Source of the DNA: an uncultured Clostridia bacterium
GTDB taxonomy: Bacteria > Bacillota > Clostridia > Oscillospirales > Oscillospiraceae
Reading direction: 5' to 3'
Assembly (NCBI GenBank): GCA_945836055.1
Contig: CAMAKJ010000002.1
Coordinates: 1-39,160, forward strand
Length of the DNA stretch: 39,160 nt
The position numbers were made by a program, and so were the translations under genes. The notes under the pieces were generated by a model. The model saw only the letters and a program-made list of their open reading frames with translations, did not search any database and was not told the origin of the DNA. This document shows, one piece after another, positions 455-17,739 of this stretch. Within the stretch, counting starts at the first letter, position 1. Every line of letters begins with the position of its first letter.

Positions 455-1894
455 TCAGTAAGTATATATCCGGTCAAGACAGGCAGTCCATGGATTGACC
501 GCGCAGCCGTAGCCATCCCGGTAAAGGGAATAGGCCTCCTGGGGAACAAAAACGCGGAGATCAGCCGCTCCGGCGAAGGTGTCCCCGGAGATGCCGCAGG
601 GGCGATCCGTATGCTTCAGGACCAGGCGGGTCAGGTTGGGGCACCGGGCAAACAGGCGATCCGGCAGGTTTTCCACGCTGGCAGGTACCGTCAGTTCCTC
701 CAGGACCTCACTTTCCAGCATTGCCCCGGAAAAACCGACTACCGGGACACCATCGATGCTGCCTGGTATGGTGAGGACCTTCTCCTGCCTGCCGGCTTCG
801 CTGAGGCCGGACACCAGATAGACACCGTTTTCTTCATCCAACGCAAAAGTGAAGCTGTCGGTGTCACCATTTTCCGTTTCCGCGGTGGCACGAACGGGTT
901 CCGGCATGGCGGGAAGCTCCCCGGTGTTAAGGGGCGCATAACACCCAAGCTGGGAAAGAATATCCTCCGCCAGAAGAAAGCTTCGCAGCCTGGCCCCTGC
1001 TGTATTCAGGTGGAAATTGTTGTCGTAAAACCATCCGCTGTCCATGACATATCGGTTGGGGGCGCTGATGACGGTGCAGTCAAAGGCGGTACGGCACTGC
1101 TCAAAAAACACCCCGATGCTCTCCATGTCGCTTACCGCAGAGCGGTTGACCGGGCTGAAGCTCAAATAGACACTGGCGCCTTTGGCCCGTGCACTTTGGC
1201 AATAGTCATTGACGAGGGCTGCAAATTCGCCGCTAATCTCCACGGAGCCAAAGTCCACGGGGGTACTGGTATCATAGCCCAGAGCAAGGATATTGCCGGG
1301 ACGGTCATAGACCATGCTGCAGTTTTCGTCAAAGGACGCCTTGCTGTAAACATCCGTGGGGTGGGGAATCTCATCGGAGCGAACCAGCTTTATGCGGTCC
1401 TGCAGATATTGCAGGTAACTGCCTGCCATAGCGCTTTTCCGATCTGCTTGCAGCGAGAAAAGCATCCGCGGGTCTTCCTCGGCGCATTTCCAGAACGCGG
1501 TAGCGCCAAAATAGGCGGACATGGTTTCGCTGGTAGGCTCCATGGCCAGGATTACCACATCCCCCTCTGACAGGGTTTCAAGGGACAAATCCAGCATGGG
1601 GGGCATTCCCACCGCGGCATAGAGTCCAAAGGAGCAGACGGTATACCCGAATCCCTGCTCTGCCAGAAGCTGCTCCAGGTACGTTACGTCCAGGCCAAAG
1701 GCCACATTGCTGCCGCCCACGATCACCAGCTTCCGCCCTTGGGTCTGCCGCAAACGCCGGTACATAGCAGGAAGCTCCGCATAGTAGGTATCCGCGAAGC
1801 AGGTGGGCAAGGACAGACCCACAGCAAGGAGGGACAGGGGAATGATTGCCGCGAGAAGCAGGGCAATGATCCACCGGAAGGCGTATTTTTTCAT
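455..1894 (-). CDS. Membrane-anchored SGNH-hydrolase-like protein with C-terminal BspA-type (LRR_5) repeats
   Basis: N-terminal TM (MKKYAFRWIIALLLAAIIPLSLLAVG); block I-like VIVGGSNVAFG; block V-like DNNFHLNTAG; C-terminal LRR_5-like VLTIPGSIDGVPVVGFSGAML..LEELTVPASVENLPDRLFARCPNLTRLVL. Start reset to 1894 (GGAGGGG RBS). Confidence 0.7.
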   Translation of the reverse strand: MKKYAFRWIIALLLAAIIPLSLLAVGLSLPTCFADTYYAELPAMYRRLRQTQGRKLVIVGGSNVAFGLDVTYLEQLLAEQGFGYTVCSFGLYAAVGMPPMLDLSLETLSEGDVVILAMEPTSETMSAYFGATAFWKCAEEDPRMLFSLQADRKSAMAGSYLQYLQDRIKLVRSDEIPHPTDVYSKASFDENCSMVYDRPGNILALGYDTSTPVDFGSVEISGEFAALVNDYCQSARAKGASVYLSFSPVNRSAVSDMESIGVFFEQCRTAFDCTVISAPNRYVMDSGWFYDNNFHLNTAGARLRSFLLAEDILSQLGCYAPLNTGELPAMPEPVRATAETENGDTDSFTFALDEENGVYLVSGLSEAGRQEKVLTIPGSIDGVPVVGFSGAMLESEVLEELTVPASVENLPDRLFARCPNLTRLVLKHTDRPCGISGDTFAGAADLRVFVPQEAYSLYRDGYGCAVNPWTACLDRIYTY

Positions 1895-3666
1895 TGGGAA
1901 TTCCCCTCCATCCAGGCGCGCAGATCCCGGAGCCACCGCTGGGTATTTTCCTGGGCCGGGATGGTCAGCAGGTGGTAATTGGTATCATAGAAATCTTCAT
2001 TGTGGTACAGGTAGTCAACCAGGGAGGACACCAGATAAACACCATCCATCTCTTCGATGGCCTCCCGGAACAGGGTGTCCATCATTTCTACGTTGTTTTC
2101 CTGACCCGCGGGCAGTGCGTCCATATTGACGCAGGCGTAGGACAGGCACACCGCCGCGCCCCGGGCCTGAATCGCCTGGTAGCACGCTTCCAGCCGCTCC
2201 ATAGCAGTGGGGGAAATAAAGCGGTCGCTGAGAAAAACACGGTCTGTTTTACTCAGATCGGCCACGGTTTTTCCCCGGAAGAAAGGAATACAGCCCCGGG
2301 CATCCATGTATTCCAGCTCTTTATCATCGGTAAAGCGTTGGGTATAGCTGCTGCGCCCGGATTTCTTTTCCAGATAGCTGCAAAGGCTGTCCAGGGCTCC
2401 GTGGACGGTTTTCAGGTCCACGGAGGCAAAAAGATCGTAGTTGTTTTCCAGCCCGCACCAAAGGGTGGGATCCTCCGGCCCCATATCGGTGTCGATAAGA
2501 AGCTGGGCGCGGCTGCTCAGCTCCGGTGTGTGGAAGAACAGGTCCCCCTGCTCCAAGTAGGGCGTGAGGATCTGGAGCTGCACCAGGCTGCTCACCGTCC
2601 CGTTAAGTCCCAGATTGATGAGGGTATATTCCTCCCCCAGCTCCCGTACTGCCGTGGGGCCGTCCATGTTGAACCACATGGAGCAGCCACCGTAGCACAC
2701 CATCTTTTTCTTCCCCTGGGCCAGAATCAGCAGATCGATTTTATCTGCGTAACAGCTCTCCCGGCGGTAGATGTAGCCGTAGGGATATTCCAAAGCGTTA
2801 ATGTGCAGGGTCGTAAAATCCGGGCAGCCGGAAATCGCATCGTCCCTGATGGACCGGATGTTGTCGAAAAGGGTCAGGGTGTGAAGTGAGCAGTTATCGA
2901 TTGCCCCCGGTTCAACATTCTGCATGGTGGCGGGCAGAACCAGGGATTCCACCGGAAGACCGGAGAAAGAACCGGTGGACAGCGTCACCACAGGCGTTCC
3001 ATCGATCATGCCGGGAATGACGATCTGCTTGGCATCACTCGTGCAGCCGGTAATGCGGATCCCGCCGTCGCAGGGTTCATAGGAAAACAGCTCCGCACTG
3101 GTCCAGGGCAGCCACTGGGCATAAAGGGTCAGACTGCCGCTGCTGTCCGGGGTAATCCGGCTGCCCAGTCCAACCTGCACCCCGGAACCATCCGGCTGCG
3201 TGTTCCAGGCTATGAGGGTATAGCCATCCCGGGAAAACCGGTCGGTCCCTAATTCCGTGTTGGGCCGCCGGTGGTAGGACAGGTCATAGTTTTTACTGTA
3301 CCGCACACCATCCGTGGTTACGGCAGTTCCGCCGTTTGCATCGTAGGTGATGGAGCAGTATTTGGAAGAAAGGGTCAATTGAATCCGGGAGGGATACTGC
3401 ACCCCATGGACCGTGACCACCGCATCCCGCCCGCTGCTCTGGATGGAATATTCCCCATCAAAGCTGGTATCCGTAATGGAGAAACCCGATTCTAAGCGGA
3501 GGTGAAAACTGACATCCTCCCCGGGACTTACCCGCTGACCGTTGTCCAGGACCGTAAACCCCGGTCCTTCCAAAATGGAAATGAGGATATCCCCGGAAGA
3601 CGTTCGCTTCTGTGCGCAGCCGCACAGGAGCAGAGCGCAGATCAGAATGGAAAGCAATCGTTTCAT
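1891..3666 (-). CDS. Lipoprotein with InlB B-repeat-like and BspA-type LRR domains followed by an SGNH-like domain
   Basis: Lipobox LLLCGC; ITYDANGGT...GYTLIAWNTQPDGSG...LTLYAQW (Listeria-Bacteroides repeat); LRR_5-like IVIPGMIDGTPVVTLSTGSFSGL; SGNH-like YGGCSMWFNM and DTNYHL. ATGA overlap with the downstream gene. Confidence 0.7.
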   Translation of the reverse strand: MKRLLSILICALLLCGCAQKRTSSGDILISILEGPGFTVLDNGQRVSPGEDVSFHLRLESGFSITDTSFDGEYSIQSSGRDAVVTVHGVQYPSRIQLTLSSKYCSITYDANGGTAVTTDGVRYSKNYDLSYHRRPNTELGTDRFSRDGYTLIAWNTQPDGSGVQVGLGSRITPDSSGSLTLYAQWLPWTSAELFSYEPCDGGIRITGCTSDAKQIVIPGMIDGTPVVTLSTGSFSGLPVESLVLPATMQNVEPGAIDNCSLHTLTLFDNIRSIRDDAISGCPDFTTLHINALEYPYGYIYRRESCYADKIDLLILAQGKKKMVCYGGCSMWFNMDGPTAVRELGEEYTLINLGLNGTVSSLVQLQILTPYLEQGDLFFHTPELSSRAQLLIDTDMGPEDPTLWCGLENNYDLFASVDLKTVHGALDSLCSYLEKKSGRSSYTQRFTDDKELEYMDARGCIPFFRGKTVADLSKTDRVFLSDRFISPTAMERLEACYQAIQARGAAVCLSYACVNMDALPAGQENNVEMMDTLFREAIEEMDGVYLVSSLVDYLYHNEDFYDTNYHLLTIPAQENTQRWLRDLRAWMEGNSQ

Positions 3667-3678
3667 CCCGGTCTCCTC

Positions 3679-5139
3679 CTAGAACTGAAAATAGGCAAAG
3701 CCCGCCGCGTCCTGGGTCGCCAGCAGTGACAGCCAGCACAGGGCAACAATCAGGACAAGATACACCGCCGCCATCAGCTTCCGGGCAGAGCCATAGGCGG
3801 TTTTCGAGGAGGGCAGATCGTATTGCCCCCAGTCATAGAGCTTCGCCATGGCGACAATGCACAGTGCCAGCCGGATAAAGCCCATGGCATCCAGTCCCAT
3901 CGTGTCAAAGGCTGCCTGGAAGTAAGCGCCTCCGAAACCGATCTGAGTGAACAGTCGGGGAAAAATAACGCCGAGCTGTGCTACACTCTCCGCCCGGAAA
4001 AGCAGCGCCGCCGGAATAAAGAGCAGAAAGGAATAGCTTCTGCGGATCAGCTTTCCTAAGGGACAATTCCACCATGGGCCGAACCGGTGCCGAATGTCCA
4101 GGGCGCTTTCCACACACATCCAGAACGCGGCGTACAGGCCCCACAGCACATAGGTCCACCGGGCTCCATGCCAGAGGCCGCACAGGGCAAAGACGATCAC
4201 CGTGTTCAGCATCTTTCGGGCAGTTCCTTTTCGGTTGCCTCCCAGAGGAATATAGACATAGCTGGTAAACCACCGGTTCAGGCTGATATGCCACCGGCGG
4301 AAAAACTCAGTATAGCTTTGGGACAGGTAGGGCCGGTCAAAGTTTTTCATCAGGCGAACGCCCATGAGCCGGGCGCTTCCCGCCGCGATCTCCGAGTACC
4401 CGGCAAAGTCACAGTACATCTGAATGCAGAACAGCCCGCCGCCGCAGAAAATTGCAAAGGAATTGGCGGTGTTCAGGTTCCCAAAGATTTGGTTTACATA
4501 AATCCCGAAAAAATCCGCCACCACGCATTTGCGGAAGAAGCCGCACAGCAGCAGTCGAATGCCCGCGGTAAAATCACCCCACTGAAATTGCTGCTCTTTT
4601 TTCAGCTGGGGCAGCAGGTTCCCGGGGCTTTCGATGGGCCCTGCAACCAGCTGGGGGAAATAGGTCACATACAGGGCAAAGGTGATGGGGTCCTTTTCCG
4701 CGGGAAAATCCCCCCGGTATACATCGATTGAGTAGCTCATGGTCTGAAAGGTGTAAAACGAGATACCTACAGGCAGGATGAGATTCAGGGCAGGCACCCG
4801 GTAAGGGACGGAAAGGGCCGCGCAGACGCTGTTCACAGTTTCGGCGAAGAAGTCCCAATATTTGAAGAAAAACAGCAGCCCCAGATTGACGCAGATGCTG
4901 GTCAGCAGCAGCGCCTTTCGGATTCCGGCCCGCCCCCGGAATTCCTCCATGCCCCTGCCGCAGCAGTAGTCCACCGCCGTGGAAAACAGCAGCAGGAAGA
5001 TCAGCAGGGGGTTCCAGTACATATAGAAGAAGTAGGACGCCGCCAAAAGCCAGAATTTCCGCCCTGTATGGGGAAGCAGCCAGTACACCGTAACCACCAC
5101 AGGCAGAAAGATCAGAAAGGCCAGAGAGTTGAAATTCAC
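3679..5139 (-). CDS. MBOAT family O-acyltransferase (AlgI/DltB-like)
   Basis: Polytopic; SYTEFFRRWHISLNRWFTSYVYIPLGGNRKG and FALCGLWHGARWTYVLWG (MBOAT His). GTG start at 5139 overlaps the upstream stop (GTGA). Confidence 0.9.
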   Translation of the reverse strand: MNFNSLAFLIFLPVVVTVYWLLPHTGRKFWLLAASYFFYMYWNPLLIFLLLFSTAVDYCCGRGMEEFRGRAGIRKALLLTSICVNLGLLFFFKYWDFFAETVNSVCAALSVPYRVPALNLILPVGISFYTFQTMSYSIDVYRGDFPAEKDPITFALYVTYFPQLVAGPIESPGNLLPQLKKEQQFQWGDFTAGIRLLLCGFFRKCVVADFFGIYVNQIFGNLNTANSFAIFCGGGLFCIQMYCDFAGYSEIAAGSARLMGVRLMKNFDRPYLSQSYTEFFRRWHISLNRWFTSYVYIPLGGNRKGTARKMLNTVIVFALCGLWHGARWTYVLWGLYAAFWMCVESALDIRHRFGPWWNCPLGKLIRRSYSFLLFIPAALLFRAESVAQLGVIFPRLFTQIGFGGAYFQAAFDTMGLDAMGFIRLALCIVAMAKLYDWGQYDLPSSKTAYGSARKLMAAVYLVLIVALCWLSLLATQDAAGFAYFQF

Positions 5140-5366
5140 TTCTCCACCCCCATGTTCAGCAACAGAAAGACCAGAAGCACGGTGGCGGTTTCCCACAGGG
5201 AAGCCCCCAGAATGAGGCTGTAGGCGGAAGCTGCAATGGCCAGCACCGCCGAGAGAACCGTAAACCACCAGCCGGTTGCCTTATAAACCCGGTCATACAG
5301 GCAGAAAAACAGGGCGGCGCCGTAGGCAAGCAGCGCCAGAGGGGAGCGCAGAATCACGCTTTCCAT
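5136..5366 (-). CDS. Small (76 aa) membrane protein
   Basis: Several hydrophobic helices; overlaps the genes on both sides (4 bp and 13 bp), indicating operon membership. Confidence 0.65.
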   Translation of the reverse strand: MESVILRSPLALLAYGAALFFCLYDRVYKATGWWFTVLSAVLAIAASAYSLILGASLWETATVLLVFLLLNMGVEK

Positions 5367-6766
5367 TGTCCCAGGACCTCCCGGATGCGTTGCTTGTCCG
5401 GCTTGCCGGAGGCGGTACGAGGGAGTTCCTCCACCATCCGGATGCCCATGGGCAGCTCATTTTTCGCAAGCAGTTCAGACAGGCGGGCAAGAATTACCGG
5501 CTCCGTCAGGCTTCCCGCGGCCATGGCCCAGGGGGCTTCTCCCTGGGTTTCGTGGGGCAGGCCCACAACTGCCGCGTCCTGAATCCCGGGTATGGACAAA
5601 ATTGCTTCTTCAATCCTTCTGGCAGAGAGGTTGTTGCCATTGCGGATGATGATATCCTTTTTCCGCCCGCTGATGTGGACGAATCCGTCCTCGTCCACAT
5701 AGCCCAGATCTCCGGTAGCCAGCAGAGGCTCGGTGGAGCTGGGCTCCCCATAGTAGCCCAGCATCCGGGAGGGGCTGTCCACGCAGATCTCGCCCTCCAC
5801 CCCCACCGGCGCTTCCGAACCGTCCTCCAGCAGGATTTTTCCTGTGTTGCGGGGATAGAATCTGCCAACGGTGGTTGCCCGCTTTTCCTGAGAGTCCAGA
5901 TAGGAAGTCGTAGTGATGCTGACGCACTCGCTCATGCCGTAGGCGGAAACCAGCGTTATATCCAGTTCTTTTTCAATATACCAGAACTGCTCCGGGGTGC
6001 AGGGACCGCCGCCGATGAAGCCCGCCCGGAGGGAGGACAGGTCGTAGCCCTCCTTTTGGGCGGCCATGCCCAGATACAGGGAGGGGACGCCGTTCATACG
6101 AGTGAGGTGCTCTTTCTGAATCGCTTCCAGAATGGACGGAATATCCATCTTATCCGGCAGATACAGAGCGTAACCGATTACAAAAACACCGGCCAGCAGA
6201 ACCAGCCCGAACACATGATCCAGCGGCAGAACTCCCAGCGCCAGATCCCCATCCAGATAGTAGCCGAAGGGGTCGGCATCCACCGGGCTGCTGATCACGT
6301 TGTCCTGGCTGAGGACCACTGCCTTACAGCTTCCCGTGGAGCCGGAGGTGAAGATAATGAAGCCGGGGGCCTTGGGGTCGATTTCCCGCTTGGGAAAGGA
6401 CCGGGAGGGCAGGCTGAAAATGTTCAGCTGCCCGGCATCCAGACTGTGCTCCACAGGAATCTCCAGTCCCCGGTTTTTAAGAAAAGCCATCGGCTCTTCA
6501 CGGGCGTCGGTAAGCACCGCTACCGCGCCGATGGCCTGCAGGGCGAGCATGGTAATCACCGTTTCCACGGTACGGGTAGTGCGCAGGGCAACGAAGCTAC
6601 CGGAATCAATTCTCTGGGAACACAGGCAGCACGCCGCGGATTCTACCCGTTCCAGAACGGTTTGGGCATCCAGCCACCAGGACGGGTTTCCCAGCATCTT
6701 TTTATGCGGTTCCCGCAGGGCAAGCTCTTTCAGATAGGTATGAAGCGTAATGTTTCTGGGAGTCAT
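5354..6766 (-). CDS. AMP-dependent acyl-CoA synthetase/ligase
   Basis: FIIFTSGSTGSCKAVVLS (A3), YGMSE (A5), TGDLGYVDEDGFVHISGRKKDIIIRNGNN (A7-A8), LPRTASGKPDKQRI (A10); GGAG RBS. Confidence 0.9.
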   Translation of the reverse strand: MTPRNITLHTYLKELALREPHKKMLGNPSWWLDAQTVLERVESAACCLCSQRIDSGSFVALRTTRTVETVITMLALQAIGAVAVLTDAREEPMAFLKNRGLEIPVEHSLDAGQLNIFSLPSRSFPKREIDPKAPGFIIFTSGSTGSCKAVVLSQDNVISSPVDADPFGYYLDGDLALGVLPLDHVFGLVLLAGVFVIGYALYLPDKMDIPSILEAIQKEHLTRMNGVPSLYLGMAAQKEGYDLSSLRAGFIGGGPCTPEQFWYIEKELDITLVSAYGMSECVSITTTSYLDSQEKRATTVGRFYPRNTGKILLEDGSEAPVGVEGEICVDSPSRMLGYYGEPSSTEPLLATGDLGYVDEDGFVHISGRKKDIIIRNGNNLSARRIEEAILSIPGIQDAAVVGLPHETQGEAPWAMAAGSLTEPVILARLSELLAKNELPMGIRMVEELPRTASGKPDKQRIREVLGQWKA

Positions 6767-7011
6767 GGCGGTATCTCCTTTTCTTTGCTGTTACCCGCAC
6801 TTTAGCATATCCCCGAAAAGCGGGCAAGCGCTCAGCGACAAACAGCGGGTATTTTAGCAATACCGCGTTTCGTCCATTACAAACGGCGCAAAAGGAGGAT
6901 GAACGGCAGCCCCGGTTTGGACAGGTGCCCAAAAAAAACGGCAGACAGGGATTGAAAATTGTTGAAAACCCTGATATGATAGGATAAATTCCTTTTGGAG
7001 GGCATTGCGGC

Positions 7012-8361
7012 ATGACCTGGCAGATCTTCTTTTCCGAAATTTTGGATACGGCCTGGGTTGCCAGCGTTTTTCTTCCGGCTCTGGCTTGGGTTCTGCTGTG
7101 CCGGGGTCTGTCTACAAAGCGGCTGAATATCCTGTACAGCCTGGCGGAGCTGGCCGTTCTGACGGCCTTGTTTTCCCTGGGAAGCGCTGTTTCCATGGTG
7201 TATTCCGGGAATATGCGCCAGGTAGTATGGGCTCTGATCCGGGGCAGCATCGCCTTTGCCTATCTGTCCATACAGGCACCCTACGGAAAGCAGACCAGCT
7301 TTGTGCTGTGGACGGCGCTTTTCGGCACCGAATGTGCTCTCACTGCCCTGGGCGGACAGCTCAGCTATCTGACAGGCGCCTTTATCGTTAAGGGCGCCCT
7401 GGAGGGGGCCGTCCGGGTGTTCTTCTTCCTTATGGAGCTCCCCGTCGCTCTGATGCTGCGCCGGATGAATTTTGACGAGTTCGGCGCGATTCCCAAAAGC
7501 GGCATGTATATGCTGCTGGCTGGGGATGTGGGCATTCTGCTGCTGCACATTGTGGAGAGCCAGTGGTTCTGCAGCGGGGTGGAGATTGTCACCACCCTGG
7601 CCATCGCCTACCTGTGCATGGTGTGCATGGAGCTGATGGCCGGAAATGCCATGTACCACATGTGCCGGGAGCAGACCGCAATTCTGACCCTGCAGGCAGA
7701 GCAGCAGCGGCTGCTCAGCGAGAAGGAGACCATGCTTGCCGCCCAAACCCGGATTGATGAGCTGCGGAGCATCCGCCACGATCTGAAAAATCAGTACGCC
7801 TATATGCAGATTCTGCTGGAAGAAGGGCGATATGCGGAATTGGGCAGCTATTTCCGCCAGGTGTCAGAGGCAATGCCGAAGCCTCTCAACTATGTGGACT
7901 GCGGCAACAATGTGATCAACAGTATTTTGAATATGGAGATCAACAAGGCTAAGCGGGAGAATATTCCGGTTGTCCACCAGCTTGTGGTGCCTCCGGTCCT
8001 GCCCTTTACCGAGGGGGATCTGTGCGCGATTCTCGTTAATCTTCTGGACAATTCCATTGAGGAGTGCCGCCGGCTGCGGGACACCACCGGAGGGGAGCCG
8101 GAAATCCGGCTGGAAATCTACCCCCAGAGGAGCTATCTTCTGATCGTATGCAGCAATCCCACCAACCGGGAGAAGCTGGAACGGAGCCCCCATGGCATCC
8201 GTACCACCAAGGGCGACGACAACCTCCACGGCTTCGGCACCCGAATCATTTCCAAGACTGCGGAACGGAACAACGGCTGCGCAGACTTTCGGCTGGAAAA
8301 CGGCCGGTTTATCAGTAAGGTCATGCTGGACCTGATGGAAGGAGAGCATCATGCAGATTAA
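7012..8361 (+). CDS. Sensor histidine kinase, GHKL/AgrC-like
   Basis: N-terminal multi-TM region, ELRSIRHDLKNQYAYMQ H-box, LCAILVNLLDNSIEECRRL N-box; overlaps a LytTR regulator. Confidence 0.88.
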   Translation: MTWQIFFSEILDTAWVASVFLPALAWVLLCRGLSTKRLNILYSLAELAVLTALFSLGSAVSMVYSGNMRQVVWALIRGSIAFAYLSIQAPYGKQTSFVLWTALFGTECALTALGGQLSYLTGAFIVKGALEGAVRVFFFLMELPVALMLRRMNFDEFGAIPKSGMYMLLAGDVGILLLHIVESQWFCSGVEIVTTLAIAYLCMVCMELMAGNAMYHMCREQTAILTLQAEQQRLLSEKETMLAAQTRIDELRSIRHDLKNQYAYMQILLEEGRYAELGSYFRQVSEAMPKPLNYVDCGNNVINSILNMEINKAKRENIPVVHQLVVPPVLPFTEGDLCAILVNLLDNSIEECRRLRDTTGGEPEIRLEIYPQRSYLLIVCSNPTNREKLERSPHGIRTTKGDDNLHGFGTRIISKTAERNNGCADFRLENGRFISKVMLDLMEGEHHAD

Positions 8362-9070
8362 GGTTGCTATGCTGGATGACGATGTAAACGCCCTGCCGAT
8401 CATTGCCGGGGCGGCCAACTCCGCTTTCCGGGCAAAGGGCATGTTGCCAGAGATTACCTGCTTCCGCTCCGGGAAAGCCCTGCTCAAAGCCCTGGAAACC
8501 ACCGCGTTTCAGCTGGTGATGCTGGACATTGAGATGCCGGACATGGACGGTATTGCCGTTGGAAAGGCCATCCGGGAACGGGGCATGGAGGTGCCCATCG
8601 TCTATGTATCCGAGTGCGAAAACCGGGTCTTTGATTCTTTTCAGGTCCGGCCTCTGGGCTTTGTGCGGAAAAGTAATTTCTTAAACGACATCGCGGCGGT
8701 TACGGAGCTGTACCTCAAGACCTGTGCCCAGGAGAGCACGGGGGAGTATCTGGAATTTCAGACCCGGAGCGGGCTGCTGACCCTGAAAAGCAAGCAGATT
8801 CGATACATTGAGGGAAACCGGAACTATCAGCTGCTCTACACCGTCTCCGGTAAGGAGCCCATTGAGGTAAAAATGACCATGGACAAGCTGGAAGCCATGA
8901 CGGAGCCCTACGGATTTCTCAGAATCCACAAAGGCTATCTCGTTAACTACCAGAGTATCCAGCGCATTTCCTCTACCACCGTCATATTGCAGGACGGCAC
9001 CGAGCTGCCGGTAGGAAGAAGCAAGGCAGCGGACATCAAAAGCAAGTTTCTTTCTTTGCTCGGAAAATAA
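8351..9070 (+). CDS. LytTR-family response regulator (AgrA-like)
   Basis: Receiver domain (VAMLDDD, LVMLDIEMPDMDG) plus LytTR domain (IRYIEGNRNYQLL...FLRIHKGYLVNYQSIQRI). Confidence 0.9.
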   Translation: MQIKVAMLDDDVNALPIIAGAANSAFRAKGMLPEITCFRSGKALLKALETTAFQLVMLDIEMPDMDGIAVGKAIRERGMEVPIVYVSECENRVFDSFQVRPLGFVRKSNFLNDIAAVTELYLKTCAQESTGEYLEFQTRSGLLTLKSKQIRYIEGNRNYQLLYTVSGKEPIEVKMTMDKLEAMTEPYGFLRIHKGYLVNYQSIQRISSTTVILQDGTELPVGRSKAADIKSKFLSLLGK

Positions 9071-9086
9071 AAATGAAATATGCTAT

Positions 9087-9119
9087 GACAGACCCTGGGT
9101 TTCCCGGGGCCTGTCTTTT
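9087..9119 (+). terminator. Terminator after the two-component system
   Basis: GACAGACCCTGGG-TTT-CCCGGGGCCTGTC followed by TTTT. Confidence 0.75.
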
Positions 9120-9161
9120 GCTGTTCGTCCATGGACGAACGGCAGACTGTCCAGTATACAA

Positions 9162-9191
9162 GCAGTTCGGCACAGAGAAAAAGCCGTTCTT
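9162..9191 (+). promoter_or_regulatory. Candidate LytTR-type direct-repeat binding site
   Basis: gcaGTTCgg and gccGTTCtt with GTTC at 9165 and 9186 (21-bp period), matching the spacing expected for AgrA/ComE-type repeats. Confidence 0.3.
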
Positions 9192-9221
9192 CCCGGGACA
9201 ATGACGAATATACAGGGGGAC

Positions 9222-9250
9222 TTGATTATTTTTTTGGGCAGAATTACGAT
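9222..9250 (+). promoter_or_regulatory. Candidate sigma-A-type promoter for the GH3 lipoprotein gene
   Basis: TTGATT-N17-TACGAT upstream of the CDS at 9315. Confidence 0.45.
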
Positions 9251-9314
9251 GTTGCCAGCAAGCGGCGGAGGAATCCACCGAATGTGAATAAAAAATGAAG
9301 GAGAACGAAAAAGC

Positions 9315-11804
9315 ATGAACATCAGCAAGAGAATCATTGCCGCACTGCTGGCGCTGGTTATGGTGTTCGGTCTGGCTGCCTGCGGCGGAGAAACCGTACA
9401 GGAAACCACTGCCAGGACCGAAGCGCCTACCGAAGCCCCGGCAGAGGCCGGCGCTGACATCACCCCCGAAGAACTGGGCTCCGGCACCGTTAAGTGGTCC
9501 GAAGAGCGCACCCCCGACGGCTACGCCATCGTTACCAACGAAGGCGGTACCACCCTGGGCTACTCCCACTCCTCCGGCATCTCCCTGATTCAGGTTGACG
9601 GCTACGCATTCAAGGACCTGAACAAGGACGGAATGCTGAACCCCTACGAGGACTGGAGAAATTCCGCTGAGGTCCGCGCCGCTGACCTGGCTGCCCGGAT
9701 GGACATTGACTCCATCACCGGCCTGTTCACCCACGGCGGCTGGAGCGTCAGCACCACGGTGGACGAGACCAGCTCCGACTGGGATTACATCGTTCACGGC
9801 GGCCGGGGCGGCGTGACCCGGGGCTCCATCAGCGAAGGCTCCACCACCACCGCCGCTACCTGGAACAACGCCCTCCAGGCGGCCTGCGAGGGTCTGGATT
9901 ACGGCATCCCCGCTCTGATCTCCGTTGACCCCGACCATGTTTCCGGCACCCTGGACAACATCTCGGTTTCTGTCACCTTTGATACCGATTTTGCCTTTGA
10001 GCTGGGCAAGATGCAGAGCCAGATGTACCGGGCCGTGGGCATCTCCATGCTGCTGGGTCCCCAGGTTGACCTGTGCTCCACTCCCCTGTTCCAGCGCACC
10101 TCCGGCGCTTACGCCGATGACCCCGCGCTGAGCCGGGACATCGCCAAGGCTTACATCTCCGGCCTGCAGTCCACCTGGGCTGAGGACGGCACCGACGAGG
10201 GCTGGGGCTCCGACTCCGTCTACGCTGTGGTCAAGCACTTTGCTGGCGCCGGCGCCGGTGAGGGTGGCCGTAACGACCACTTTGCCAACGGTAAGTACGA
10301 TGTGTTCCCCGGCGACAACTTCGAGGCCCACCTGATCGCTTACTTTGACGGCGCTTTCCAGCTGGATTCCACCACAAAGTCCGCCGGTATTATGACCAAC
10401 TACTCCGCCGCCTACTCCCGGGACGGCTCCCTGGGCGACGTGGTTGCGGGCGCTTACTCCAACTATAAGACCGATCTGCTGAAAGCCGGCGGCTTTGACG
10501 GCTTCATCATCACCGACTGGGGCATTGTCGGCGAGGGCCAGAAGTGCTGGGGCGTTGAGGAATACACCGACGCCGAGCAGTGGGCTTTGCTGATGCAGAA
10601 CGGCATCAACCAGGTCGGCGGAAGCGCTGACTACGCCACCGCTCGCGAGGGCTATGACGTTCTGTGCGACTGGATGGGCGAAGCGGAAGCCGAAGCCCTG
10701 ATGCGGAGCACCACCACGGGCACCCTGAAGCTGTACTTCAACCTGGGTCTGTTCGACAACGCCTATGTCAGTCTGGACTACGCGCAGAATACCCTGTGGA
10801 CTGCCGAGACGGATGCCATTGCGCTTGCTCAGCAGGAAAAGAGCATTGCCATGCTGAAGAACAACGGCTTTGTTAAGGAAGCCACCGATTCCGACGAGAA
10901 GCTCACCGCTTACGTTCCCTACGTCTTCACCGCCGCTACCGAAGGAAACTCCTCCGCCGAAGGTTCCCCCGCTTCCTGGGGTCCCGCTATGAACCTGGAT
11001 TCCGTTGCGAAATACTATAACGTTGTGACCGACTCCGTCGGCGAGCCCACCGGCGAGCCCGACGCTGACGGCAATCCCACCTACACAGAGAACGACATCG
11101 TCCGTGCCTCCGCCGCGGACCTGGCCAAGTGCGACCTGGCTATTGTTCCCATCAACGATCCCTTCACCGGTGCCGATCAGGACGAGGAAGGCAACTACCT
11201 GCCCGGCTCCCTGCAGTTTGAAGCCTACACTGCCGACACCGCCCGCCGTGAGTCCATCGCCGGCGACACCGTCTCCGAGATCATCAACGACGGCTACGGC
11301 ACCAAGACTCAGGTGACTCAGGAGAACCGTTCCTACTACGGCAGATCTGTCGGCAGAGCCAGCAACTACGCCGAGTATGAGATGCTGCAGTACGTTGCCA
11401 GCGCTGTTCCCGAAAGCTGCACCGTGGCCCTGCTGGTCTGCGCGGACAACGCCATGATCTGGAACGAGGTCGAGCCTCTGTCCGATGTCATCCTGTACTA
11501 CTTCGGCTCCGCGTTCATGAACGGCAGCTGGTTCAAGGACGAGGCAATTCTGAATGTCCTCTCCGGTAAGGCTGAGCCTTACGCCCTGCTGACCCTGCAG
11601 CAGCCCGCCAGCATGGAAGCCGTCGAGGCCCAGCTGGAGGATGTATGCCGTGACTGCGAGTGCTATGTGGATTCCAACGGCAACACCTACGACTTCGCTT
11701 TCGGCCTGAACTGGTCCGGCGTTATCAACGACGCGCGTGTGCAGAAGTACTCCGCCGCGCCTCTGACCGAGTGCGAGAACCTGGACTTCTTCTACGCCAA
11801 CTAA
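9315..11804 (+). CDS. GH3 beta-glucosidase-like lipoprotein
   Basis: Lipobox LAAC; GH3 barrel motifs VVKHFAGAGAGEGG and GGFDGFIITDWG (nucleophile Asp context). Confidence 0.85.
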   Translation: MNISKRIIAALLALVMVFGLAACGGETVQETTARTEAPTEAPAEAGADITPEELGSGTVKWSEERTPDGYAIVTNEGGTTLGYSHSSGISLIQVDGYAFKDLNKDGMLNPYEDWRNSAEVRAADLAARMDIDSITGLFTHGGWSVSTTVDETSSDWDYIVHGGRGGVTRGSISEGSTTTAATWNNALQAACEGLDYGIPALISVDPDHVSGTLDNISVSVTFDTDFAFELGKMQSQMYRAVGISMLLGPQVDLCSTPLFQRTSGAYADDPALSRDIAKAYISGLQSTWAEDGTDEGWGSDSVYAVVKHFAGAGAGEGGRNDHFANGKYDVFPGDNFEAHLIAYFDGAFQLDSTTKSAGIMTNYSAAYSRDGSLGDVVAGAYSNYKTDLLKAGGFDGFIITDWGIVGEGQKCWGVEEYTDAEQWALLMQNGINQVGGSADYATAREGYDVLCDWMGEAEAEALMRSTTTGTLKLYFNLGLFDNAYVSLDYAQNTLWTAETDAIALAQQEKSIAMLKNNGFVKEATDSDEKLTAYVPYVFTAATEGNSSAEGSPASWGPAMNLDSVAKYYNVVTDSVGEPTGEPDADGNPTYTENDIVRASAADLAKCDLAIVPINDPFTGADQDEEGNYLPGSLQFEAYTADTARRESIAGDTVSEIINDGYGTKTQVTQENRSYYGRSVGRASNYAEYEMLQYVASAVPESCTVALLVCADNAMIWNEVEPLSDVILYYFGSAFMNGSWFKDEAILNVLSGKAEPYALLTLQQPASMEAVEAQLEDVCRDCECYVDSNGNTYDFAFGLNWSGVINDARVQKYSAAPLTECENLDFFYAN

Positions 11805-11836
11805 ACCTGTCCCGATTCCCTTCGTAATCTGACCCA

Positions 11837-11877
11837 CCGCGCAGAGCAGAGCGCGCTCTGCTCTGCGCGGCTTTTTC
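11837..11877 (+). terminator. Strong Rho-independent terminator
   Basis: Perfect 34-bp palindrome CCGCGCAGAGCAGAGCG/CGCTCTGCTCTGCGCGG then CTTTTTC. Confidence 0.85.
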
Positions 11878-11883
11878 TTCTCC

Positions 11884-12049
11884 AGGGAAACTCTGAATCA
11901 TTCGTCTGCGGCTTAAGCAGCGAATCTTTTACCCCAGTCGTGCAGTTTGAAAAGTGGGAAAGACATCCAGTATTCCCTCACTTTTCAAACTTTCGCCTGT
12001 GGCAAAATCTTCTGCTGCCAGCTCTTGCCTCTTTATTCAGAGCTTCCCC
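11884..12049. repeat. MITE-like long imperfect palindrome (~166 bp)
   Basis: Terminal inverted repeats GGGAAaCTCTGAATcA / TtATTCAGAGcTTCCC; central perfect AGTTTGAAAAGTG (11944-11956) / CACTTTTCAAACT (11979-11991); related to the short copy at 29281-29338. Confidence 0.65.
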
Positions 12050-12077
12050 AGTTTTCAAAACCAAGGGAGGTAACTTC

Positions 12078-15000
12078 GTGATAGACATTCTCATTAACCT
12101 GCTTACGCCCATGTTTGAGGCTATGGGCGCCAGCGCCGCCGATGTTTCCAACTACATCCAGGGACTGTCTGGCTATATCTACGCCATTTTCGGCCTGCTG
12201 GCCGTTATGATAGCGGTCATGGTGGCCGCCCACTTCGTTGTAAAAAAGGGTACCCGGCATGTGGTGCGCTGGTCCGCCGTCCTGGCCTTTGTGATGGCGG
12301 TGGTGCTGATCGTCAATCTGATCTGCTACGGCCCCATGTACGCCACCGTTTCCGGCGTGCTGAACGCCTCCCGGGCGGAGATCTCCGATGATGTTTCCGG
12401 TAACTCCCGGGCCGTTATCCAGAGAACCGGCGAGGAGGGCATGGTCCTGCTGAAAAACACCGGACTGCTGCCCCTGAAGAGCGATGTCAGCAGCCTGAAT
12501 GTGTTTGGCTGGTCCTCTGCATATCCTGTGCTGGGCGGCACTGGCTCCGCTGCCAGCGGCACCGTCAAGGGAGAGATGGTGGGTATCCTGGATTCTCTGC
12601 AGAATGCGGGCTATGCCACCAATGAAGAGCTGACAAAACTTTACACCGACTATGCCGCTTACTGGAACGGTGAACGTCCCTCCATCACCATGAATACCCA
12701 GGAATGGACCTGCCCCGAGCCCGCGATGGAAAACTATACCGACGCGGTCATGAAGAACGCCAAGAGCTTCTCCGACACCGCCGTGATCGTCATTGCCCGC
12801 AGTGGCGGTGAAAACGCCGACCTGCCCACAGACATGGGTGCGGTGCTGAAAGGCACCTACGATGTGGCCAAGACCGGCATTGTCCAGGAAGCTGTCAGCG
12901 CCAACTACAGCTATACCGCAGGCTACGCCTATTCCAACACCCCCGGTGTGGATGACTGGCAGGCTGGAGAACACTACCTGGAACTGAGTTATACCGAAAA
13001 GGAACTGGTGAAGCTGGTCACCTCCAATTTCAGTAGCGTCATCGTAGTTATCAACGCCAACAACCCCATGGAGCTGGGCTGGGTTGAGGATTACAGCAAT
13101 ATCGGCGCCGTGATCCTGGCCCCCGGTACCGGAGCCACCGGTATGACCGCTCTGGGCGAGATCCTGAGCGGCACCGTGAACCCCTCCGGCAAGACCGTGG
13201 ACACCTATGTCTATGACCTGACCGCCGTTCCCAATTTTCATAACTCCACCAACTCCGGCAACCATCTGTATCAGAATGTGGGTGACATCACCAAGGTCCT
13301 TGCCCGTGAGGACACCACCTCCCAGGGCGTGATTTCCTTTACCGATTACGTTGAGGGCGTCTACATGGGCTACAAGTTCTATGAAACCGCTTCTGATGAC
13401 GGCGTAATCGACTACGATGCCGCGGTTCAGTATCCCTTCGGCTACGGCCTGAGCTATACCACCTTCACCCAGGAGATTACGGACTTCTCCGAAAGCAAGG
13501 ATTCGGTATCCCTGAAAGTAACCGTCACCAATACCGGCAGCGTTGCCGGACGGGATGTGGTGGAGCTGTATTATACGCCTCCCTATACCGATGGCGGCAT
13601 CGAGAAAGCCTCTGTGAATCTCATCGACTTTGAAAAGACCGAGCTTCTGGAGCCTGGCGCTTCCCAGACTGTGGGCTTCACCATCGCGAAGGAAGATATG
13701 GCTTCCTACGATTCGGCCTGCATCAAGACCGCTTCCGGCGGCTATATTCTGGAAGCCGGAGAATATGTCCTCTCCATCCGTTCCGACTCTCACACCGTAC
13801 TGGATTCCAAGAGCTTCACGGTATCGTCCGACATCGATTACAGCAAAAACGGACGTTCCAGCGACAAGGTCACTGCCACTAACCAGTTTGATTACATCGA
13901 GGGCCACGGGGAAACCCTGTCCCGTAAGGGCGGCTTTGCCAACTACGACAAGGCAACCGCCGCGCCTGCTGACGATGCTTTCCAGATGTCCAAAGAGCAG
14001 CAGAACGAGATTAAGGCCATTACCACCCGCTACAAATCCGAGGATTACGACAATCCCGACGATGTGATGCCCACCACCGGTGCTAAGGGAAACATGACCC
14101 TGTCCCAGCTTACCGGAAAGAGCTATGAGGACTCCGATTGGGAGAAGCTTCTGAACCAGATGAGCGTGGATGACATGGTGACTCTGGTCAATACCGGCGG
14201 CTGGCAGACTGCGGAGATTTCCTCCATCGGTAAAATCGCCACCTCCGACTGTGACGGCCCCAACGGTTTGAGCAATTATGTTACCGGCTCTAACGGCACC
14301 CGGTTCACCACCTCCGTCATGCTGGCTCAGACCTGGAGCAAGGAAGTGGCAGCAGCTTATGGCGATGCCATGGGGCAGGAATTTGCCAATGCCAATAACT
14401 ACGGCTGGTACGGCCCCGCTATGAACCTCCACCGCTCCGCGTTCTCCGGCCGGAACTTCGAGTACTTCTCTGAGGACGCTGTCCTGTCCGGTCTCATGGC
14501 CTCCCAGGAGGTAAACGCCGCTGCCAAGTACGGTGTCTACGCCTACCTGAAGCATTTCGCGGCCAACGACCAGGAAACCAACCGCTGCGCGTTCCTGCTG
14601 ACCTACATGACCGAGCAGACCCTCCGGGAAGACTGCCTCAAGCCCTTTGAAATCGTTGTCAAGAACTTCGACTTTGACAGCGGTGTGCTGGGCATGATGA
14701 CCGCCTACAACTGGCTGGGCACCCATCCTGTTATCAGCAATTCCGAGCTGCTCCAAACCGTTCTGCGGGATGAGTGGGGCTTCCGGGGCGTGGTCATTTC
14801 CGACTACAACGGCTCCTACGGTTATCAGAAGACCGACTCCGCTATCCGCAACGGCAACGACCTGATGCTGGGCTACGGCATGTCAGAGAGTAATAAGCTG
14901 GAAAATTTGGAGTCCCCCACTCTGGTAAAGGCTCTGCGCCAGGCCTGCAAGAACATTCTCTACACTGTTGCCAACAGCGGTTACTATGCAGACGGTTCCG

Positions 15001-15170
15001 CCGGCAACGGCGGCATGAGCAACATGAATAAAATCTTCATGGCTGTTGATGTGTGCACGGTCCTGCTGGTCTGCGGTATGGAAACCCTGGTGATCCTGCG
15101 CTGGCTGAAAAAGAAAAAGGCTGTGGTGATCGTTACCGAAACCGCTTCGGAGGATCCCGCAAATTCCTGA
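12078..15170 (+). CDS. Membrane-anchored, domain-permuted GH3 glycoside hydrolase
   Basis: GTG start with GGGAGGT RBS; two N-terminal TMs; GH3 C-domain/FnIII motifs (GMVLLKNTGLLPL, YPFGYGLSYTTF, VTNTGSVAGRDVVELY) precede the GH3 barrel (GPAMNLHRSAFSGRNFEYFSEDA, YLKHFAANDQE, WGFRGVVISDYNG); C-terminal TM plus KKKK. Confidence 0.88.
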   Translation: MIDILINLLTPMFEAMGASAADVSNYIQGLSGYIYAIFGLLAVMIAVMVAAHFVVKKGTRHVVRWSAVLAFVMAVVLIVNLICYGPMYATVSGVLNASRAEISDDVSGNSRAVIQRTGEEGMVLLKNTGLLPLKSDVSSLNVFGWSSAYPVLGGTGSAASGTVKGEMVGILDSLQNAGYATNEELTKLYTDYAAYWNGERPSITMNTQEWTCPEPAMENYTDAVMKNAKSFSDTAVIVIARSGGENADLPTDMGAVLKGTYDVAKTGIVQEAVSANYSYTAGYAYSNTPGVDDWQAGEHYLELSYTEKELVKLVTSNFSSVIVVINANNPMELGWVEDYSNIGAVILAPGTGATGMTALGEILSGTVNPSGKTVDTYVYDLTAVPNFHNSTNSGNHLYQNVGDITKVLAREDTTSQGVISFTDYVEGVYMGYKFYETASDDGVIDYDAAVQYPFGYGLSYTTFTQEITDFSESKDSVSLKVTVTNTGSVAGRDVVELYYTPPYTDGGIEKASVNLIDFEKTELLEPGASQTVGFTIAKEDMASYDSACIKTASGGYILEAGEYVLSIRSDSHTVLDSKSFTVSSDIDYSKNGRSSDKVTATNQFDYIEGHGETLSRKGGFANYDKATAAPADDAFQMSKEQQNEIKAITTRYKSEDYDNPDDVMPTTGAKGNMTLSQLTGKSYEDSDWEKLLNQMSVDDMVTLVNTGGWQTAEISSIGKIATSDCDGPNGLSNYVTGSNGTRFTTSVMLAQTWSKEVAAAYGDAMGQEFANANNYGWYGPAMNLHRSAFSGRNFEYFSEDAVLSGLMASQEVNAAAKYGVYAYLKHFAANDQETNRCAFLLTYMTEQTLREDCLKPFEIVVKNFDFDSGVLGMMTAYNWLGTHPVISNSELLQTVLRDEWGFRGVVISDYNGSYGYQKTDSAIRNGNDLMLGYGMSESNKLENLESPTLVKALRQACKNILYTVANSGYYADGSAGNGGMSNMNKIFMAVDVCTVLLVCGMETLVILRWLKKKKAVVIVTETASEDPANS

Positions 15171-15182
15171 TTGCCTGTTTCC

Positions 15183-15230
15183 TTCTTCTCTCACACCCGG
15201 CCCTCTTCGGAGGGCTGGGCCTGAGAAGAA
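15183..15230 (+). other. Intergenic hairpin with TTCG tetraloop, no T-tract
   Basis: TTCTTCTC/GAGAAGAA outer arms and GCCCTC-TTCG-GAGGGC inner stem between two GH3 genes. Confidence 0.45.
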
Positions 15231-15300
15231 CACAGATCCGAGAGCCGGGGGATCCGGCTTTGGGATTTGTGCGGTTGACTTGATTTGAGGAGTGAGCATT

Positions 15301-17739
15301 ATGAAATTACATGAAATCATCGGGAAACTGACCCTGGAAGAAAAGGCGGCGCTACTCCAGGGCTGGAGCACCTGGACTACCCGGGAAGTACAGCGCCTGG
15401 GGATCCCTGCCATTTTCCTGTCCGACGGGCCTCACGGCCTGCGCAAGCAGGCGGGAGCGGGGGACCATCTGGGCCTGAACGCTTCCGTTCCCGCTACCTG
15501 CTTCCCCACCGCCGCCACCATGGCAAACTCCTGGGATGTGGAACTGGGCGAGGAGCTGGGCCGTGCCTTGGGCGAAGAAGCCGCCGCGAACGATGTGCAC
15601 ATGGTGCTGGGCCCGGGCCTTAACATGAAGCGCTCCCCCCTGTGCGGACGGAACTTCGAGTATTTTTCCGAGGATCCGTACCTGGCAGGAAAGATGGGCG
15701 CTGCTTACATCCGGGGCATCCAGGCAAACGGCGTTGCCGCCTGCCCCAAGCACTTCGCCGCCAACTCCCAGGAGCTGCGGCGGATGTGCATGGACTCCGT
15801 GGTGGATGAGCGGACACTGCGGGAAATCTACTTAACCGCCTTTGAAATGGCCGTCACCGAGGGCAAGGCCAAAACCATCATGTCCAGCTACAACATGGTC
15901 AACGGCACCTATGCCAACGAAAACGCCCACCTTCTTACGGAAATCCTCCGGGGTGAGTGGGGCTTTGACGGCTTTGTGGTCACCGACTGGGGCGGAGACA
16001 ACGACCACGCGGCAGGCGTAAAGGCAGGCTCCAACCTGGTAATGCCAGCTCCCGGCCCGGACTGCGCCATCGGCCTCGTTCAGGCTGCCAAAGCGGGCCG
16101 GGTTTCCGAAAAGGAGCTGGACAAGCGGGTAGAAGAGCTTCTGAATGTGGTGTTTTCCACCAGTGAGGCGGTTTCCAAGGCGCCCAAGACCTTTGACAAG
16201 GAAGCCCACCACGCCATTGCCCGGAAATGTGCCGAAGGCTCCATCGTCCTGCTGGACAACGACGGCATTCTGCCCTTGGACAAAAGCTGCACGGCGGCGA
16301 TCATCGGCGACTTTGCCGAGGCACCCCGGTACCAGGGAGCAGGCTCCAGTCAGGTTAACCCAACAAAGCTGGATGATTTGAAAAGTGCGCTGGAAAATTC
16401 CGGTCTGGAAATCACCGGATTTGCCCAGGGCTTCTCCCGCACCGATCCCAAACCGGATAACAGCCTGATCGCTCCGGCAATTCTGCTGGCGAAAATGTCG
16501 GATGTGGTGATCCTCTGTGTGGGTCTGGATGAAATCGCGGAATCCGAGGGCTTGGACCGGGTATCCATGGAGCTGAGCCAGGGACAGAGAATGCTTCTCG
16601 ATGAGATTTATAAGGTTAACCGTAATATCATTTTGGTGCTCTCCGGCGGCGCGCCTTTTGTTATGCCGGAACGGCATAAATATAAAGCAGCCATCCATGG
16701 CTACCTGGGCGGTCAGGCGGGTGCGGGTGCCATGGCGGACGCCCTGCTGGGTAAGGTCAATCCCTCCGGCAAGCTGAACGAGACTTGGCCGGAGAAGCTT
16801 TCGGACAACCCCTCCTATCCTTATTTCCCCAGCAAAGAGCGCACCGCCGAATACCGGGAGGGCTTGTACATCGGCTACCGTTACTACGATACCGCCGGTG
16901 TGCAGGTGAGATATCCCTTCGGCTATGGACTCAGCTACACCAGCTTTGCCTATTCCGATATTTCCGCTTCGAAAGATTCCGTCACCTTTACCATCACCAA
17001 TACCGGCAAAGTTGACGGCGCAGAGGTGGCCCAGGTGTACGTCTCCTGCAAGGACGGGAAGGTGTTCCGGCCCAATAAAGAGCTCAAAGGCTTTGCAAAG
17101 GTGTTCCTGAAAGCGGGGGAGCGCAAAACCGTCACCGTTGCGCTGGATGACAAGGCCTTCCGCTACTTCAATGTAAAGACTGACCGCTGGGAAGTGGAAC
17201 CAGGGAACTATGTGATCTGTGTGGCCTCCAATGTAAATGATGTCCATCTGACGGAAACCCTCTGGGTGGAGGGCACAGAAGCGCCCACGCCCTACGGCGA
17301 GCTGCTCAGTTACGAAAGCGGAAAAATCCAGCAAGTAAGCGATGCCGAGTTTGAGACGCTGTTGGGGCATCCCATTCCCGACGGCCACTGGAGCGGCGAG
17401 CTGACCAGGAACGACGCCATCTGCCAGCTGTACTACGCGAAATCTGCCCCGGCAAGACTGGTGTACAGGATTCTGACCAGTCTGAAAAACAAGGCCGAAG
17501 CCAAGGGAAAACCGGACCTGAATATCCTGTTCATTTACAACATGCCCTTCCGTGCACTGGGCAAGATGGCGGGCGGCATGGTCAGTGACAAGATGGTGGA
17601 CGACATTGTGTTCCTGGTCAACGGCCACTTCTGGCGGGGACTGGGACGGGTCATCGCGGACTTCTTCCGTAATATGAGTCGCAACAAGGCATTTATGAAG
17701 AAATTGGAAGCAGAACCGGCTAAGGAGGCTAATGTATGA
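15301..17739 (+). CDS. Cytoplasmic GH3 beta-glucosidase, canonical domain order
   Basis: SDGPHGLRKQ, GPGLNMKRSPLCGRNFEYFSEDP, CPKHFAANSQELRRM, WGFDGFVVTDWG, SIVLLDNDGILPL, YPFGYGLSYTSF, ITNTGKVDGAEVAQVYV; no signal peptide; ATG at 15301 with GGAG RBS. Confidence 0.92.
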   Translation: MKLHEIIGKLTLEEKAALLQGWSTWTTREVQRLGIPAIFLSDGPHGLRKQAGAGDHLGLNASVPATCFPTAATMANSWDVELGEELGRALGEEAAANDVHMVLGPGLNMKRSPLCGRNFEYFSEDPYLAGKMGAAYIRGIQANGVAACPKHFAANSQELRRMCMDSVVDERTLREIYLTAFEMAVTEGKAKTIMSSYNMVNGTYANENAHLLTEILRGEWGFDGFVVTDWGGDNDHAAGVKAGSNLVMPAPGPDCAIGLVQAAKAGRVSEKELDKRVEELLNVVFSTSEAVSKAPKTFDKEAHHAIARKCAEGSIVLLDNDGILPLDKSCTAAIIGDFAEAPRYQGAGSSQVNPTKLDDLKSALENSGLEITGFAQGFSRTDPKPDNSLIAPAILLAKMSDVVILCVGLDEIAESEGLDRVSMELSQGQRMLLDEIYKVNRNIILVLSGGAPFVMPERHKYKAAIHGYLGGQAGAGAMADALLGKVNPSGKLNETWPEKLSDNPSYPYFPSKERTAEYREGLYIGYRYYDTAGVQVRYPFGYGLSYTSFAYSDISASKDSVTFTITNTGKVDGAEVAQVYVSCKDGKVFRPNKELKGFAKVFLKAGERKTVTVALDDKAFRYFNVKTDRWEVEPGNYVICVASNVNDVHLTETLWVEGTEAPTPYGELLSYESGKIQQVSDAEFETLLGHPIPDGHWSGELTRNDAICQLYYAKSAPARLVYRILTSLKNKAEAKGKPDLNILFIYNMPFRALGKMAGGMVSDKMVDDIVFLVNGHFWRGLGRVIADFFRNMSRNKAFMKKLEAEPAKEANV

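Follow-up and report, generated by a model that had tools for sequence, protein, structure and literature searches.

Five adjacent minus-strand genes in the window, by which we mean the whole 39,160-nucleotide stretch analysed here (contig CAMAKJ010000002.1 of an uncultured Clostridia bacterium), quite probably encode a CoA-fed envelope acyltransferase of the MBOAT-SGNH kind, to which an acyl-CoA ligase of its own has been added. Judging from sequence comparison, the cytoplasmic ligase would use ATP to activate a free carboxylic acid and load it onto CoA. The MBOAT, together with a small membrane protein, would then pass the acyl group from CoA to its own Tyr483 at the outer face. Finally, the SGNH proteins would accept the group from the tyrosine, at Cys328 of SGNH1 and/or Ser62 of SGNH2, and hand it to a surface polymer. 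ORF calls in the window give the cluster as ligase, 76-aa membrane protein, MBOAT, SGNH1 and SGNH2, and the features referred to below are as follows.

5354–6766, minus strand: AMP-forming ligase of the ANL type, acyl-CoA-ligase-like, 470 aa (Pfam, NCBIfam, motifs)
5136–5366, minus strand: membrane protein of 76 aa, three hydrophobic stretches (small membrane ORF upstream of the MBOAT)
3679–5139, minus strand: MBOAT, 486 aa (Pfam MBOAT, 3.1e-31; best PDB match DltB, 5e-21)
3682–3699, minus strand: FAYFQF (an FXYXXF motif) at the MBOAT C-terminus, predicted acyl-tyrosine shuttle (Tyr483, codon 3691–3693)
1891–3666, minus strand: SGNH1, lipoprotein, with Cys328 at codon 2683–2685 (hhalign, fold match)
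455–1894, minus strand: SGNH2, membrane-anchored, 479 aa, with Ser62 at codon 1709–1711 (Foldseek)
7012–9070, plus strand: GHKL histidine kinase (7012–8361) and LytTR response regulator (8351–9070), divergent from the operon (Pfam)

The genes are tightly packed. The ligase and 76-aa ORFs share 13 nt, the 76-aa ORF overlaps the MBOAT in the GTGA at 5136–5139 (the MBOAT has a GTG start at 5139 and its stop at 3679–3681), a gap of 12 nt precedes SGNH1, and SGNH1 and SGNH2 overlap in an ATGA, with SGNH2 running from 1894 to 455. The ORF check bears out the five genes and the overlaps listed in the first-pass annotation, and no carrier-like ORF was found within the cluster. Neighbourhood conservation, which that annotation had proposed as a check, was also evident: 13 loci contain all five genes.

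The MBOAT has the features of PatA/AlgI-type enzymes, namely the WHG histidine (H324), a C-terminal FXYXXF and an adjacent SGNH gene. Both RRWH (H284) and WHG are invariant, the latter among 13 sequences, and FXYXXF stands exactly at the C-terminus of all 45 module MBOATs, reading FAYFQF in the window. The hexapeptide was absent from the C-terminus in each of four DltB proteins checked, from genomes of the same order. In Dlt systems the motif is on DltX and DltB is without it, whereas in the PatA/AlgI type it is fused to the MBOAT, acyl-CoA is the donor, and neither a carrier nor DltX is needed (PMC12148441). PatA auto-acetylates the motif tyrosine from acetyl-CoA (PMC12148441), and Tyr483 is the predicted acyl shuttle of the window MBOAT, by the chemistry demonstrated for PatA. 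Two more MBOATs of the window genome, on other contigs, end in FLYFNF and FLYFRF (L143 and L144; G000:C33 and C18). We saw no ligase on these two contigs, and an exported-protein ORF (7294–8370) adjoins the MBOAT in L143.

We rejected the 76-aa protein as a candidate DltX, because FXYXXF was not found in it or its homologues and is present at the end of the MBOAT itself. A carrier-protein serine motif was not found in the 76-aa protein either. Nearly all modules, including all 13 with a ligase, have a small membrane ORF immediately 5′ of the MBOAT, and a 4-nt overlap joins the two genes in 24 of the 29 loci from the wider family. In some ligase-less loci the profile misses the small gene, which is too diverged and shows up only as a membrane ORF in the expected gap. 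The overlap and the 13 loci place the five-gene grouping beyond chance. The fixed position and the overlap suggest a stoichiometric accessory subunit, and the 76-aa protein is probably a translationally coupled partner of the MBOAT. It is rare in the window genus (5 of 136 genomes).

The ligase has AMP-binding (1.8e-49) and AMP-binding_C domains in Pfam, and its best NCBIfam match is the long-chain-fatty-acid--CoA ligase model PRK06187, at 259 bits and under the cut-off of 476. It contains FTSGSTG, LPLDHVFGL (H184, codon 6215–6217) and the catalytic lysine K455. Across 15 ligase sequences the P-loop FTSGSTG, YGxSE, TGD and the C-terminal catalytic Lys are invariant or near-invariant. At the site where DltA-like proteins have F-D-x-S, the ligase has H-x-F-G-L, as does a FadD-type enzyme from the window genome. 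The Asp of F-D-x-S in DltA-type ligases is expected to bind the amino group of the substrate. The H-x-F-G-L motif suggests that the free carboxylic acid used as substrate is probably not an amino acid. The ligase motifs, together with the lack of a carrier, point to loading of this acid on CoA. We abandoned predicting the substrate from residues of the ligase pocket: these vary among subclades, and the ligase shares little identity with solved enzymes.

In two loci, L132 (6409–7059) and L133 (12178–12828), of genomes G315 and G437, an ORF of the chloramphenicol acetyltransferase (CAT) family lies immediately upstream of the ligase and overlaps its start. CAT enzymes are acyl-CoA users, and this neighbour fits a CoA product of the ligase. 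Ligase homologues were also found in other settings. Matches in G096 and G094 (L037, L038) were rejected as module members because they have other gene contexts. In L039 (G053:C70) a ligase homologue at 984–1629 is broken by in-frame stops. L036 (G036:C5, 6225–9046) appears to be a module remnant in which SGNH1 is frameshifted, the MBOAT and the small gene are gone, and a truncated ligase is fused to the C-terminal portion of SGNH2.

The first-pass annotation had inferred that no dedicated carrier protein is encoded and that CoA or a carrier in trans would be used. The first point holds beyond the cluster: the PF00550 profile showed no carrier protein next to the module in any of 28 module-bearing genomes. 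All 28 have an ACP, none of them on a contig known to hold a module, although for five loci the ACP contig numbers differ from the module record numbers and separation was judged by numbers alone. The profile was used instead of single-sequence phmmer, which gave only chance-like matches in DltA control loci. In the window genome one ACP exceeded the PF00550 cut-off, a clear AcpP on another contig (C98:6316–6537); this genome is 84% complete, so an ACP may have been missed. One ACP each was likewise found in G031, G081, G804 and the genomes of L052 and L053.

This AcpP could in principle serve in trans in a Dlt-like carrier route, with the ligase loading AcpP and the MBOAT drawing the acyl group from it. 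Some ANL ligases do load ACP, and motifs are no proof of CoA use over AcpP. We consider this route quite unlikely, given that the ligase motif is of the acyl-CoA-ligase type, that a carrier was seen near no module, that the core genes also exist without ligase or carrier, and that FXYXXF-bearing MBOATs are of the CoA-using type (PMC12148441). The MBOAT type and the lack of a nearby carrier support CoA as the substitute for a carrier.

Of the 13 loci with all five genes, one is the window itself, four are from genomes of its genus and three from its family; the remainder come from Blautia schinkii, Protoclostridium (two) and Clostridia MAGs (two). The 13 loci were found by a ligase search (genus and GTDB genomes) and a small-protein profile search, and five of the ligase-bearing loci came from searching with the ligase itself, which biases the sample. 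Several gene orders occur, including lig-small-mboat-sgnh1-sgnh2, lig-sgnh1-small-mboat-sgnh2 and sgnh2-sgnh1-small-mboat-lig. When order, class and family samples were searched with an SGNH1 profile and the loci inspected, about 30 further loci emerged in which the SGNH1-small-MBOAT-SGNH2 core has neither a ligase nor a carrier beside it; some of these are incomplete at contig ends. These ligase-less Clostridia modules share the four core genes, the domains and the FXYXXF motif with the window operon, but differ in that the ligase is missing and Ser is kept in SGNH1. In the open-licence papers searched we found no description of a ligase, MBOAT and SGNH operon or of the ligase-less modules.

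The existence of so many core loci without ligase or carrier suggests that the core runs on CoA and that the ligase was added later. The core probably works on housekeeping acyl-CoA, and the sister modules would follow the same route with, for example, acetyl-CoA; the added ligase presumably supplies another acyl-CoA. The MBOAT tree groups the ligase-bearing modules in a single clade (SH-aLRT 100, and 100/100 in a smaller careful tree). Ligase presence requires one change on this tree, and whether that change is a gain depends on the rooting. Three genomes (G315, G437 and G480) contain a module of each type, which suggests that the two types differ in acyl group or polymer.

The same distribution bears on another reading, that the ligase supplies another pathway while the MBOAT uses acetyl-CoA for ordinary O-acetylation of a polymer. 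The sister modules do keep every other part without a ligase, and in G081 (L035) a solitary ligase homologue lies directly downstream of a similar CAT-like ORF (1039–1680) with no MBOAT module. However, the ligase occurs across its whole clade, in several arrangements of the genes, and often overlaps the adjacent one; it accompanies a Cys in SGNH1, and both module types coexist in the three genomes named above. We therefore regard ordinary O-acetylation as fairly unlikely.

Like DltXABCD, the window operon combines an AMP-forming ligase, an MBOAT, an SGNH protein and a small membrane protein. Unlike Dlt, it has no carrier, its small protein is without the DltX motif, the shuttle motif is fused to the MBOAT, the ligase is not of the DltA type, and there are two SGNH proteins. 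The first-pass annotation had described a Dlt-like acyl-transfer operon; acyl activation, transmembrane transfer and the lack of a carrier are supported, but kinship with dlt in particular is not. The small protein without the DltX motif, the MBOAT score against the DltB model TIGR04091 (127 bits vs a cut-off of 375), the ligase without F-D-x-S and the sister modules without any ligase all speak against it. A true Dlt variant that transfers D-alanine to teichoic acid is highly improbable, even though the parts list fits and DltD is the best acyltransferase match of the SGNH folds: besides these mismatches, DltC is missing, and no DltA exceeded the cut-off in the window genome.

Neither SGNH1 nor SGNH2 matched the SGNH models of Pfam, but the description of both as SGNH-like was upheld by their predicted folds, which match DltD, PatB and GDSL esterases. 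The AlphaFold models have moderate mean pLDDT (75 and 82). The best Foldseek match of SGNH2 is DltD (7dxm, 3.5e-4), and PatB was also matched; SGNH1 matches DltD and GDSL esterases. The DltD matches of the two proteins (E-values of 3.5e-4 and 8.9e-4) have low query-normalised TM scores of 0.23–0.33. The two proteins are homologous to each other (hhalign probability 99.8%), with C328 aligned to S62. SGNH1 has a lipobox (LLLCGC), a Listeria-Bacteroides repeat and a BspA-type LRR stretch, and SGNH2 has an uncleaved-looking N-terminal membrane segment and an LRR-like tail at its C-terminus. SGNH1 is present as three tandem copies in L197 (G827, 5209–11385) and is duplicated inside one long ORF in L202 (G876, 6926–10594).

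In SGNH2, the block I catalytic Ser (S62), D291 and H295 are invariant in the 13 ligase modules. In SGNH1, H565 is invariant in the same modules and the His of the DxxxH motif is retained in nearly all copies, but the block I Ser is replaced by Cys328 in the window. Among the 13 ligase modules, 11 have Cys at this position and two (L051 and L061) have Ser; all 37 readable ligase-less sequences have Ser. No sequence read has Ala or Gly there. The Cys requires two changes on the MBOAT tree, both inside the ligase clade, so the link between Cys and ligase reflects a handful of events and does not count as statistically independent evidence.

Two readings of the Cys may be considered, a working nucleophile in a thioester relay or an altered or lost catalysis. 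Under the latter, one SGNH protein would act as the transferase, its partner being an esterase or a scaffold without catalytic activity. A Ser to Cys swap often lowers hydrolase activity, and SGNH1 has the additional LRR and repeat domains. PatB and Ape1 are a known transferase/esterase pair and provide a precedent (PMC12148441). Against this, His565 and the nearby motif are conserved, and only Cys or Ser is found at the position. We give this division of labour an appreciable but less than even chance; it covers one step only and is compatible with the CoA-fed acyltransferase that we favour. As a more tentative proposal, which we hold to be rather doubtful, the ligase may have been recruited first and the Ser of SGNH1 then changed to Cys, so that the acyl group would be held as a thioester in a relay from Tyr to Cys to Ser (or directly to the polymer). 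If true, this would be a Cys-nucleophile SGNH acyltransferase that is tuned to an unusual acyl group and holds it in activated form on the outside of the cell. No description of Cys-nucleophile SGNH enzymes was found in the open-licence papers searched.

The window operon is flanked by the divergent GHKL/LytTR pair and by GH3 glycosidases. A kinase/regulator pair is also near 6 of the 12 other ligase modules (L051, L053, L054, L131, L132 and L133), and GH3-like ORFs are near most of the 12. Three GH3-type genes lie in a row at 9315–17739 of the window. The middle one (11940–15170) is domain-permuted, with GH3_C and Fn3 followed by GH3_N, and has hydrophobic segments near both ends. ORFs similar to these GH3 genes adjoin the acylation module in other Clostridia. 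The pair are candidate regulators outside the enzymatic core. The recurring neighbours hint at a glycan acceptor, perhaps one handled by the GH3 enzymes, and at signal-controlled expression.

In combination, the operon is best read as a variant of the CoA-fed MBOAT-SGNH acyltransferases that has Dlt-like parts and fails the defining features of Dlt. It resembles PatA/PatB and AlgI/AlgJ/AlgX in the C-terminal FXYXXF on the MBOAT, the extracytoplasmic SGNH partners, and the lack of a carrier and of DltX. It differs from them in having a dedicated acyl-CoA-ligase-like enzyme and a small coupled membrane protein, in the LRR and Listeria-Bacteroides repeats of its SGNH proteins, and in the Cys at the SGNH1 nucleophile position. 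The ligase-bearing form also occurs in a named sequenced strain, Blautia schinkii DSM 10518, with Ser in SGNH1. The Ser/Cys difference points to a natural swap in an SGNH acyltransferase, one that is directly testable. The comparison suggests that the addition of one ligase may give a CoA-fed MBOAT-SGNH machine a new acyl group.
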